From assembly GCF_002837135.1 (NCBI RefSeq), contig NZ_NWBQ01000044.1:1-64000 (forward strand): 64,000 nucleotides of DNA, written 5' to 3'. Each line of letters opens with the position of its first letter. Position 1 is the stretch's first letter. The notes below the pieces were generated by a model. It searched no databases, was not told the origin of the DNA, and saw only the letters and a list, made by a program, of their open reading frames with translations. The DNA is from Macromonas bipunctata. GTDB lineage: Bacteria > Pseudomonadota > Gammaproteobacteria > Burkholderiales > Burkholderiaceae_C. Shown here one piece after another: positions 59,123 to 63,561 of this stretch. Made by a program: the position numbers and the translations under genes.

Positions 59123-60025
59123 TCAGGCCAGCAGCTCGCCGCCCAGCGCGGCGATCAGGTCGGTAATCAGCGGGCCGAGTTCGCCGGTGGCGATGGCCAC
59201 GTCGGCGTCAAAGCCGCTGGCGTCCTGGGCGCTGGCGTGCGTGTCCACCACGCCGTCGAGGAAGGTGATCTTGCGCAGCTGCAGCCCTTCGGTCAGCACC
59301 AGGCCGACGCGGCCTTCCCAATCCAGCGCCAGTTTGGTGGGGAGTTTGCCCTGCGCGATGTGGCGGCGCATTTCCTCGTCTTCTAGGTGGTGGCGCGTGA
59401 ACTTGACCACCGATTGCATGGCATCGGTGGATTTGAGTTCGACCTCGTGGCCCGGTGCAAAATGGTCGGGCCAGTCGTCGGGGGTGCCGCTGAGCCACTG
59501 GGTCATGGCCGCTTGTGGGGCCACTTGGGTGTTGAGCAGGCTCAGGTGCAGGCCGGGGCAGGCTTGCGTGAGCGCGGTGGTGACGGCGTCGGCCTTGCTC
59601 TGGCTGGCGGTGTCGAGCACCAGCAGCTGCGCCTGGAGGTCGAGCCAGACCAGCACGCTGCTGCTCTTGGCAAAGGCCATCGGCAGCAGTTCGTGTACCA
59701 GATCGTCGCGCAGCTCGCGGCTTTCCTTGCGGCCGGGTTTGCGCCCGGTGGTGGCTTCGATCTGGGCGATGCGTTCCTCGAGGTGGCGCTTGACCACCGA
59801 GCCGGGCACGGACTTGCTCTCGAGCATGAAGCGCAGGATGCGCTGGCCGCCGACGAGCTCTACCAGCGCGGTGTGTTTGTCGCCGCGCGGGGGCAGCCAG
59901 CCCAGGGATTGTTCCTGCGTGGCGCCACAGGGTATAAAGGGCGCCTGGGCCAGCGCGTCTTCCATGTCTTCTACCGTGGCCGACCAGCCGGCGCCGATGC
60001 GGTAAATGATTGCGTTTTTGAACAC
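59123..60025 (-). CDS. rdgC: Recombination-associated protein RdgC
   Basis: The 300-residue protein matches RdgC, a DNA-binding ring dimer that limits RecA. It starts with GTG at 60025 (FKNAIIYRIGAGW), with AAAGGAAA upstream. Longer frames to 61186 run antisense to the next gene and are not coding. Confidence 0.93.
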   Translation of the reverse strand: MFKNAIIYRIGAGWSATVEDMEDALAQAPFIPCGATQEQSLGWLPPRGDKHTALVELVGGQRILRFMLESKSVPGSVVKRHLEERIAQIEATTGRKPGRKESRELRDDLVHELLPMAFAKSSSVLVWLDLQAQLLVLDTASQSKADAVTTALTQACPGLHLSLLNTQVAPQAAMTQWLSGTPDDWPDHFAPGHEVELKSTDAMQSVVKFTRHHLEDEEMRRHIAQGKLPTKLALDWEGRVGLVLTEGLQLRKITFLDGVVDTHASAQDASGFDADVAIATGELGPLITDLIAALGGELLA

Positions 60026-60074
60026 GGGTTTCCTTTGCAACACCGCCGTGGAGCGGCGGCGGGGGTAGAGTTTA

Positions 60075-61529
60075 ATGACTATTTCGTCGGTTCCGCCGGG
60101 TGGCGGTGGGGTGGGGGTGGCCATGCCGGGGGCGGCAGCGGCGGGCACGGCGTTGTCCACAGCGCAATTGGCGTTGCAGCGGCAGGGACAGTTGTTGGCG
60201 GTGGCCTCGGGCGGTGGTGCCGCGTTGACGGCAGAGTCGGACGCTGCTGCGTTGCCGCCCGCATTTGCCTTGCCCGATGCGGCGGTGCCGCTGCCCCCGG
60301 CCACGGGTTTGCCGCTGCCCGCGCGGGCCGGGGTGCTGGAGTTGCTGTCGCCGCAGTTGCGGCAGTGGTTGCAGCAGGTGGCGCCGGGGTCGGCTTCTAC
60401 CGCCGGTGCGGCGACGGGAACGGCGGGTGTGCCACCGGGGGCTGCGGTGGGGGCGGGCGTGGGCGGCTGGTCGTCGCAGCCGCAGCTGGCGGCGCCCACG
60501 CAGGCCGGGGGCGCCGTGGCCCAGCACACGGGGCCGTTGTTGCCGCCGTGGCCCACGCAGGGGGTGCCACCGCCGGTGCTGGCGGCCACCGAGCGCCTGT
60601 TACAAGCGGTGTGGCCTGCGCCTGTATTGACGTCTGGCGTGGTGTCTGCAGCGGGGGCGGCGCTGGCGTCCGGTCGGGCCGCGGCGACGTCTGGCCCGGG
60701 TAGCCCGGCGGCCAGCAAGGGCAAGTCCGGTGCAGGCCTGCTGGAGGGGCTGGTTGCACCACAGCCGCCGGTGCAGGATGCCGTGCTGGAGGCGGCAGGC
60801 ACCGCGCCACCCCGTGCCGACGGCGCAGCGGCGGGCCTGCGCCTGCTGGGGATGCAGCCCTGGCCCGCGCCCCTGTGGCAGGCGCTGGTGGCGGTGGCCG
60901 ATGGCAAGGCCGAACCGCTGCCGCACGGTGCCGCGCCCGCCGGGCAGGCCGCGTTGCCCCCCTTGCACGCAGGCTGGACGCAGCACGCCCAGCTCAAGAC
61001 CCCCGATGGCCTGCACAGCGTGCTGTTGACCCTGCGCCTGCCGCTGGCGTGGGTGCAGCAGCACGCGCAGGCACTGCAACGCAGCGGCTGGCTGTTACCT
61101 TTTTCAGAATCGCCACGGATCAGCAGCGCCGCGGGCACCGGCACCGCCAACGCGGGGGCTGGCCCGTTGCTGGTGGCGCCCGACAAGACGCTGGTCAGCG
61201 CAGGGGTGTGGGCGCTGGTGCTGCAGATGGCCGATGCGCCCGCCGTGAGTGCCCTGTTGTGGTTGGAGCTGGGGCCGCCGCGCGACTGGCCGTCCAGCTA
61301 CGGCGGGCGCGACGTGTTCCAGCCGCGCAGTGTGAGCGATCCGTGGTTGCAGCAGGCGCAGCTGTTGGCGGCGGAGCGCCCCCAGCGTCACCCCGACCCT
61401 GGCGGCAAGGCGCCACCCCTGTGCGACACACCGGGGTGTCCTTACCAGGGGCAAGTGGCCTGTCCGCAGCCGTTTTGCCCCGCGTTGGCGCAAGTGCCCG
61501 CTACTGGGCCGGTGCCTGCGTTGGGTTGA
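60075..61529 (+). CDS. Unknown Ala/Pro/Gly-rich protein with C-terminal Cys cluster
   Basis: This 484-residue protein is not one I recognise. Residues 1-270 are low-complexity Ala/Pro/Gly/Val. Residues 280-430 look folded (LLGMQPWPAPLWQALVAVAD, GVWALVLQMADAPAVSALLW). The end has four cysteines, C450, C455, C463 and C468 (C-x4-C-x7-C-x4-C), which could bind zinc. There is no signal peptide. It diverges from rdgC by 49 bp. A FliK-like hook-length protein was considered because of the composition, but no flagellar genes are nearby. Confidence 0.7.
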   Translation: MTISSVPPGGGGVGVAMPGAAAAGTALSTAQLALQRQGQLLAVASGGGAALTAESDAAALPPAFALPDAAVPLPPATGLPLPARAGVLELLSPQLRQWLQQVAPGSASTAGAATGTAGVPPGAAVGAGVGGWSSQPQLAAPTQAGGAVAQHTGPLLPPWPTQGVPPPVLAATERLLQAVWPAPVLTSGVVSAAGAALASGRAAATSGPGSPAASKGKSGAGLLEGLVAPQPPVQDAVLEAAGTAPPRADGAAAGLRLLGMQPWPAPLWQALVAVADGKAEPLPHGAAPAGQAALPPLHAGWTQHAQLKTPDGLHSVLLTLRLPLAWVQQHAQALQRSGWLLPFSESPRISSAAGTGTANAGAGPLLVAPDKTLVSAGVWALVLQMADAPAVSALLWLELGPPRDWPSSYGGRDVFQPRSVSDPWLQQAQLLAAERPQRHPDPGGKAPPLCDTPGCPYQGQVACPQPFCPALAQVPATGPVPALG

Positions 61530-61545: not shown

Positions 61546-63561
61546 TCAGGCGGCGGTGGTTTCGATCTGTTCAATGGCTTCGGAGACTTCCAACCAGCGT
61601 TCTTCGGTGCTTTCCTTTTCGGTGGCCAGCGCCTTGAGGCGTTTGCCGATTTCGGCCATTTCGCTGCCGAGCAGGGGTTCGAGCAGGCGTTGTTGCAGTG
61701 CCTGGTCTTCGGCATCGAGCGCGGCCATGCGTTGCTCCAGCGCAGCGAGTTCTTTTTTCCAGGGTTTGGTTTTTTCGGCCAGTTGCTGGCGGCGTTGGGC
61801 ATCGAGACGGCGCTGTTCCGCCGGATTGACGGTGGGTGTGGACGCGCGCACCGCGTCGCTGGCTGCGTTGCCATTGCCGCTGCCACTGGTGGAGCTGGCC
61901 TTGCTCTGCGCGGCTTGGGCCGACACCGCCTCGCGCTTTTGTTTGGCCACGTCCAGCAGGTAACGCTGGTAGTCGTCCAGATCGCCATCGAACGGGGCGA
62001 TGCCGCCGTGCGAGACCAGCCAGAACTCGTCGCAGACCGAGCGCAGCAGCGCGCGGTCGTGGCTGACCAGCATCACAGTGCCCTCAAATTCGTTCAGCGC
62101 CATGGCCAGCGCCTCGCGGGTGGCCAAGTCGAGGTGGTTGGTGGGTTCGTCCAACAGCAGCAGGTTGGGGCGCTGCCAGACGATCATGCACAGCACCAGA
62201 CGGGCTTTTTCGCCACCGCTCATGCTGCCCACGGCTTGCGCCACCATGTCACCGCTGAACTGGAAGCGCCCGAGGAAGTTGCGCAAATCTTGTTCGCGGG
62301 TGGCTTGGCCGCTCAGGGCACCGGCGGTCTCGGTGTCGCGCGCCAGCCGGATCATGTGGGCCAGCGGGGTGTCGTCGGGGCGCAGCACGTCCAGTTCTTG
62401 CTGGGCAAAGTAGCCGATGTTGAGGCCTTTGCCTTCGGTGATGTGCCCGGTCAGCAGTGGCAGCGCGTGCGCCACGGTCTTGACGAAGGTGGACTTGCCC
62501 TGGCCGTTGGCCCCCAGGATGCCCAGCCGTTGTCCGGCCAGCACCGAGCGGGTGACGTTGTGCACGATGGTGGTGGCGGTGCCATCGCTGGTGCGGTAGC
62601 CAAACGCGGCTTCGCGCAAGCTCAACATGGGGTTGGGCAGTTGCGCCGGTTCGTCGAATTCGAGCTGGAATTCGGCCTCGGCCAGCACCGGGGCGATTTT
62701 TTCCATGCGCTCCAGCGCCTTGACCCGGCTTTGGGCTTGTTTGGCTTTGGTGGCCTTGGCCTTGAAGCGGTCGATGAACTTTTGCAGGTGCGCGATTTTG
62801 TCCTGCTGGCGCGAGAACGCGGCCTGCTGCTGGCTCATCTGTTCGGCGCGCATGTCCTCAAAGCGGCTGTAGTTGCCGCCGTAGCGCGTGAGTTTGCCCT
62901 GGTCGATGTGCAGCGTGACTTGCGTGACCGCGTCCAGAAATTCGCGGTCGTGGCTGATGACGAGCAAGGTGCCGGTGTAGCGTTTGAGCCAGCTTTCCAG
63001 CCACACCAGAGCGTCCAAGTCCAGGTGGTTGGTGGGTTCGTCCAGCAGCAGCAAGTCGCTGGGGCACATCAGCGCGCGCGCCAGTTGCAGCCGCATGCGC
63101 CAGCCGCCCGAAAAGCTGTTGACGGGCCGATCCAACTCGTTGACCTGAAAGCCCAGCCCCAGCAGCAACGCCTGTGCGCGCGCCGGGGCATCGTGGGCAC
63201 CTGCGTCGTGCAACGCGGTGTAGGCGTGGGCCATGTCCTCGCCGTTGCCACTGGCTTCCGCCTGGTGTACCGCTTGTTGTGCGGCCAGCAAACGGGTGTC
63301 GCCTTCCACCACAAAGGCGGTGGCGGGTTGCTCGGTTTCGGGCATGTTCTGGGCCACTTGGGCCACTTCCCACGTGCGTGGCCACGCAAAGTCGCCGCTG
63401 TCTTCGTGCAATTGGCCCAGCAGCAGCGCAAACAGGCTGGATTTGCCCGCGCCATTGCGCCCCACCAAGCCTATGCTTTCACCGGGGTTGAGGGTGGCGC
63501 TGGCGCTGTCGAGCACGACTTTGGTGCCCCGGCGCAGGGTGACGTTGCGCAAGGTGATCAT
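61546..63561 (-). CDS. ABC-F family ATP-binding protein (YheS/Uup-like)
   Basis: The 671-residue protein has two ABC domains without membrane segments: first with GRNGAGKSSL (about 35), SGGWRMRLQLARALM and DEPTNHLDL; second with GANGQGKSTF, SGGEKARLVL and DEPTNHLDL. A P-site tRNA-interaction linker (about 240-300) and a C-terminal coiled coil (residues about 590-671) complete the ABC-F layout. ABC-F proteins act on stalled ribosomes. Its ATG overlaps the prmB stop (ATGA). Confidence 0.93.
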   Translation of the reverse strand: MITLRNVTLRRGTKVVLDSASATLNPGESIGLVGRNGAGKSSLFALLLGQLHEDSGDFAWPRTWEVAQVAQNMPETEQPATAFVVEGDTRLLAAQQAVHQAEASGNGEDMAHAYTALHDAGAHDAPARAQALLLGLGFQVNELDRPVNSFSGGWRMRLQLARALMCPSDLLLLDEPTNHLDLDALVWLESWLKRYTGTLLVISHDREFLDAVTQVTLHIDQGKLTRYGGNYSRFEDMRAEQMSQQQAAFSRQQDKIAHLQKFIDRFKAKATKAKQAQSRVKALERMEKIAPVLAEAEFQLEFDEPAQLPNPMLSLREAAFGYRTSDGTATTIVHNVTRSVLAGQRLGILGANGQGKSTFVKTVAHALPLLTGHITEGKGLNIGYFAQQELDVLRPDDTPLAHMIRLARDTETAGALSGQATREQDLRNFLGRFQFSGDMVAQAVGSMSGGEKARLVLCMIVWQRPNLLLLDEPTNHLDLATREALAMALNEFEGTVMLVSHDRALLRSVCDEFWLVSHGGIAPFDGDLDDYQRYLLDVAKQKREAVSAQAAQSKASSTSGSGNGNAASDAVRASTPTVNPAEQRRLDAQRRQQLAEKTKPWKKELAALEQRMAALDAEDQALQQRLLEPLLGSEMAEIGKRLKALATEKESTEERWLEVSEAIEQIETTAA

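Follow-up and report, generated by a model that had tools for sequence, protein, structure and literature searches.

The gene and its product

Within the window, by which we mean the whole 64,000-nucleotide stretch of DNA that was analysed, an open ATG-to-stop frame of 484 amino acids plus stop runs from 60075 to 61529 on the plus strand. A divergent gene on the minus strand, rdgC, starts with GTG at about 60025 (judged by eye), leaving ~49 bp between the two. On the same strand as rdgC, an ABC-F gene has its end at 61546, 16 bp beyond the target stop. The names of both neighbours follow the earlier note. The features of the gene are as follows.

60075..61529, plus strand: whole gene (open frame, homologues, purifying selection in related pairs)
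60075..60764, plus strand: low-complexity N-terminal arm, residues 1–230 (composition; length differs among homologues)
60150..60197, plus strand: short motif 1, residues 26–41, counterpart of LAEAALQRQ..LL of Acidovorax-type homologues (by eye)
60336..60374, plus strand: short motif 2, residues 88–100, counterpart of the S-[LI]-S-P-Q-A-R motif in homologues (by eye)
60747..61421, plus strand: predicted C-terminal alpha/beta domain, residues 225–449 (AlphaFold modelling of the window protein and homologue L024; alignments)
61422..61478, plus strand: Cys4 motif, residues 450–468, C-x4-C-[PQ]-Y-x-[GA]-x-[AV]-x-C-x-Q-P-F-C (homologue alignment)

The opposite strand is open too. The rdgC frame runs open for ~390 codons upstream of its true-looking start, giving a misleading minus-strand ORF of 687 aa (59123–61186) that lies in the rdgC frame and spans the target gene, and automatic annotation could pick the wrong strand here. 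With the minus strand open, codon statistics alone would not decide which strand is coding at 60075–61529. The GC content by codon position in the plus frame (0.76/0.63/0.83) is compatible with plus-strand coding, but the separation is weak. The plus frame is preferred over the minus-strand ORF because it has homologues in several other genera, the spacing of its cysteines is kept there and dN/dS is low. For 14 related homologue pairs, dN/dS was 0.05–0.31 over the last 215 residues and 0–0.74 in the preceding part; the highest N-terminal value comes from the pair L018/L023 and is unsafe, as the start codon of L023 was not recognised. The pairs show purifying selection, and the frame at 60075–61529 is a real protein gene, as the earlier note had it.

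Proline, alanine and glycine make up 51% of residues 1–230, and this arm is probably disordered. By eye, the arm of Acidovorax-type members bears both the LAEAALQRQ..LL motif and an S-[LI]-S-P-Q-A-R-like motif, and the former is missing or unrecognisable in members of genus g152 (our guess is that this genus is Comamonas). At the other end, the window protein has exactly four cysteines, at residues 450, 455, 463 and 468, spaced C-x4-C-x7-C-x4-C. Both the Pro/Ala/Gly-rich N-terminus and the cysteine-bearing end had been pointed out in the earlier note, which placed the cluster after a folded domain. Such a domain was modelled directly ahead of it (see below), and the cluster shows no variation in spacing: the spacing is identical in all 36 distinct sequences of a first set and in 66 of 67 of an enlarged set, the window's own counted in each, and the 67th (L148) ends at a stretch boundary that cuts the motif.

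Among 41 distinct motif strings, the four cysteines, one tyrosine and the Q-P-F preceding the last cysteine are invariant, and no histidine within the motif is conserved. From 200 residues ahead of the motif onwards, 62 of 66 sequences have no further cysteine, and the other four have one extra. Because the four cysteines are invariant and most homologues lack any other nearby, the motif is most simply read as a structural site for zinc or another metal, and we consider metal binding by this tail likely; the zinc site suggested in the earlier note is thus a reasonable idea, now backed by strict conservation. The family resembles Cys4 and C2H2 zinc fingers and knuckles in having its invariant cysteines as two C-x4-C pairs, and differs from them in the x4-x7-x4 spacing, the Q-P-F-C end and the missing conserved histidine. 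With four cysteines as candidate ligands and no conserved motif histidine, the motif does not fit a C2H2 finger; the C2H2 profile PF24761 matched 6 of 35 members without significance (best E 0.16).

Sequence searches and predicted structure

Scans of Pfam, NCBIfam and PHROGs and sequence searches of the PDB, run with the window protein and with family alignments, returned no credible relative, and the protein, called unrecognised in the earlier note, indeed falls into no Pfam or NCBIfam family. Weak matches were obtained to PF15747 (1 of 35 members), phrog_37965 (2 of 65 members, best E 0.00075) and NF045782 (2 of 65 members, best E 0.0053), and these were set aside.

AlphaFold modelling of the last 260 residues of the window protein with 35 sequences gave a pLDDT of 69.4 and a pTM of 0.58. 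For the compact relative L024 with 65 sequences the values were 77.1 and 0.60, and 88 of 245 residues had a pLDDT of at least 90. The L024 model, the better of the two, predicts a confident alpha/beta core of helix-strand-helix-strand-strand followed by further strands, with a pLDDT of ~57–75 around the tail region. Structure prediction, proposed in the earlier note as a check, thus yielded a C-terminal alpha/beta domain but no convincing match in the PDB. Foldseek found nothing significant for either model, and a viral fold library gave nothing. In several g152 homologues, the first 65–70 positions of the profile match twice within one gene (the additional match lying, for example, at G312:C1:199963–200163 and G242:C15:30492–30680), which suggests that a helix-strand module in front of the domain has been duplicated.

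A narrow and patchy family

An initial protein search covered 60 genomes, the window's own among them, and found one clear relative (G010), with 42% identity to the window protein over the last 200 residues and the same Cys tail; its contig appears as Diaphorobacter nitroreducens in a scan of named genomes. One weak match (G022, E 0.007) was dropped before counting. A two-row profile was then used on 399 genomes of the family at E up to 0.01 and gave 29 matches, 24 of them strong. The five weak ones (E 0.001–0.004) disappeared with a 35-row profile and were discarded, leaving as carriers 24 of 399 genomes and 9 of 141 genera of one GTDB family. The gene is missing from most of the sample, yet its carriers span several genera, so that absence from close relatives, which the earlier note had named as a refutation, did not come about. 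Seventeen loci came from the scan of named genomes: 11 in Acidovorax, single ones in Diaphorobacter, Curvibacter and Hydrogenophaga, and three with no finer label than Burkholderiales, Gammaproteobacteria or uncultured.

The earlier note had suggested looking for conservation across Burkholderiales, and this did not bear out. Seven of 399 genomes in a sample of the order matched; five belong to the same GTDB family, and the two weak matches outside it are not credible, one (G469) being a frame that by eye lacks the Cys4 tail and the other (G504) having three stops inside. A tblastn search of plasmid records gave no match. The window's own genome holds a second match on C70 (E 0.03–0.14), treated as chance; the main frame of that stretch we take to be a cyclopropane-fatty-acid-synthase-like gene. 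The family is real, narrow and patchy, and is restricted to part of one GTDB family.

Genomic surroundings

It was unclear to the earlier reader why the gene sits between rdgC and an ABC-F gene. Orthologues do not have these neighbours; the gene has moved, and since it is located elsewhere in other genomes, its place in the window carries little meaning. We compared 22 stretches, the window included, with a crude gene picker that picked up the family member itself in 16 of them. A gdhA-like gene (glutamate dehydrogenase) was present in 14 stretches and a metH-N-like gene in nine, the latter directly upstream on the same strand in seven of those nine. In some g152 genomes the gene is found at yet other locations. 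As it occupies many places, fixed neighbours were rejected as a clue to function, and no flagellar gene lay beside it in the 22 stretches or in these g152 genomes. For two Acidovorax stretches, the next same-strand gene (L037:5726–6568 and L048:2238–3086) looks like one for an EAL-domain cyclic-di-GMP phosphodiesterase.

Joint distribution with FliK

As a proxy for the flagellum we used the FliK domain PF02120 (Flg_hook) alone, scored over its cut-off. The window's own genome has PF02120 on another contig (G000:C65:19429–19677), among genes that we take to be chemotaxis and flagellar genes. This FliK (L052, L184) lies within an unusually long open frame of 1884 codons in low-complexity, repetitive DNA.

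PF02120 was detected in all 24 carriers of the family sample, compared with 142 of 200 genomes in a sample of the family, carriers included. Counted by genus, the association of the gene with FliK is weak (9 of 9 carrier genera vs. 107 of 141; 0.08). A closer correspondence was seen inside genus g152, where 44 of 53 genomes have the gene and 44 have PF02120: 43 have both, eight have neither, and one genome each has the gene only (G801) or FliK only (G810), both of these being 85% complete. The 46 genomes with a completeness of 90% or more and a contamination of 5% or less agree fully, 38 with both and eight with neither (Fisher 4e-9, valid if the genomes are independent). The genomes lacking both are G374, G800, G802, G803, G805, G807, G814 and G825, several of which are single-contig or nearly so, and they are apparently a flagellum-less branch of an otherwise flagellated genus.

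In a tree of metH-N, these eight group as one clade with a UFBoot of 62. The tree rests on one gene from 30 of the 53 g152 genomes and has one outgroup row inside the genus beside G788, so it is not fully trustworthy. Because the negatives form a single, weakly supported clade, the Fisher value has to be discounted and the genus records one or two loss events. The stem of that clade amounts to 0.7% of the length of the tree, and a random single loss would thus rarely fall there. In the negative genome G803, 0.7 of 5.2 Mb was read, and within this portion the flagellar and flanking genes of the G796 cluster were not found; the matches there were at paralogue level (a FliI-like frame at 33% and a CheY-like frame at 30%), and this reading of G803 weighs neither for nor against a deleted flagellar cluster.

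The joint presence and absence of the gene and FliK hints at a flagellar role, and we put the chance of such a role, of whatever kind, at somewhat below even. The gene is clearly not required for flagella generally: most flagellated relatives do without it, and G140, a genome of the carrier genus g141 (its place in the sample is inferred from its handle), has PF02120 and is not among the carriers. A search of 52 upstream regions with a sigma-28 consensus revealed no promoter of this type; in L035, 4 of 100 shuffles attained the best score, and in the other regions 7–97 of 100 did so. The N-terminal motif pattern of the family was not found in FliK or in proteins of the flagellar cluster.

A possible flagellar accessory protein and its alternatives

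From what was observed, namely the layout of the protein, the invariance of its cysteines and the co-distribution with FliK in the compared genomes, our best reading, offered tentatively, is a lineage-restricted, probably cytoplasmic accessory protein of the flagellum that bears a structural Cys4 metal site, a possibility that we hold to be real without expecting it to be right. Such a protein, confined to Comamonadaceae, would have a disordered Pro/Ala-rich arm, carrying one or two short motifs for docking, that leads to a compact alpha/beta domain that closes with a Cys4 site holding one structural zinc ion. It might serve the flagellum as a non-essential accessory factor, its arm tethering it to an export, switch or regulatory partner (the choice of partner is a guess) and its metal-capped domain forming a second contact. 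A bolder version, in which a previously unrecognised, clade-specific flagellar protein with a Cys4 metal cap and a fold new to structural biology arose in Comamonadaceae and was discarded upon loss of the flagellum, strikes us as unlikely.

About as likely as the flagellar reading is a Cys4 metal-site protein that has nothing to do with flagella, for example a nucleic-acid-binding adaptor or an enzyme, whose absence from the flagellum-less clade would be coincidence or part of a wider gene loss. The small number of co-loss events, the lack of any flagellar neighbour and of a sigma-28-like promoter, and the identity of the nearest recurrent neighbours, metH-N-like and gdhA-like, all fit this explanation. 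It sits less easily with the presence of FliK in every carrier of the family sample and in 43 of 44 g152 carriers, and with the agreement of all 46 high-quality g152 genomes; as the neighbours vary, metabolism is not indicated either.

A different flagellar role would be that of an export substrate resembling FliK, with the arm as secretion signal or ruler and the domain acting when hook or rod assembly is completed. FliK itself has a low-complexity N-terminal part and a compact C-terminal domain and occurs in the same genomes, which is the appeal of the idea. Yet the carriers have a separate FliK, the Cys4 tail belongs to the present family, and an invariant site of this type would better suit a cytoplasmic protein. 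Moreover, PF02120 was absent among 35 members scanned by Pfam up to E 1, and hhalign of family alignment A3 against a FliK alignment gave a probability of 0.1. With neither a PF02120 match nor profile similarity, FliK was rejected as a relative, and a role as export substrate appears quite improbable.

Still less do we expect the protein to be related to the CheC/CheX/FliM-middle fold and to act on CheY or at the motor switch. A structural search with the model of the window protein did place CheC, CheX, FliY and FliM in all eleven best rows (Z 5.3–3.1, with the next row at 2.7), but Z scores below 8 are common for unrelated folds, that model is of low confidence, and the search with the better L024 model did not list these proteins (best Z 2.6), although missing from that list is not decisive against the fold. 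There is no sequence match either. No fold was assigned, because the CheC-type rows were not repeated with the better model and Foldseek was not significant. Finally, an open frame arising by chance opposite the extended rdgC frame, with no gene present, would go with the 687-aa ORF being open as well, but it is refuted by the homologues, which occur in nine genera of the family sample and retain the Cys motif at low dN/dS, and we give it practically no credence.

The co-distribution with FliK is a new lead on what is a narrow family without a name rather than a new kind of system. If the flagellar link is true, a gene that had no family turns into a motility factor open to testing in Acidovorax, Diaphorobacter and their relatives, and the Cys4 tail is the obvious site to mutate. 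If it is false, what is left is a strongly conserved candidate metal-site family outside the searched profile libraries.

At the opposite end of the window, positions 1–405 on the plus strand hold a frame with C-x2-C pairs that is cut by the left window edge and, by its looks, is presumably the end of a TnpB-type transposon protein.
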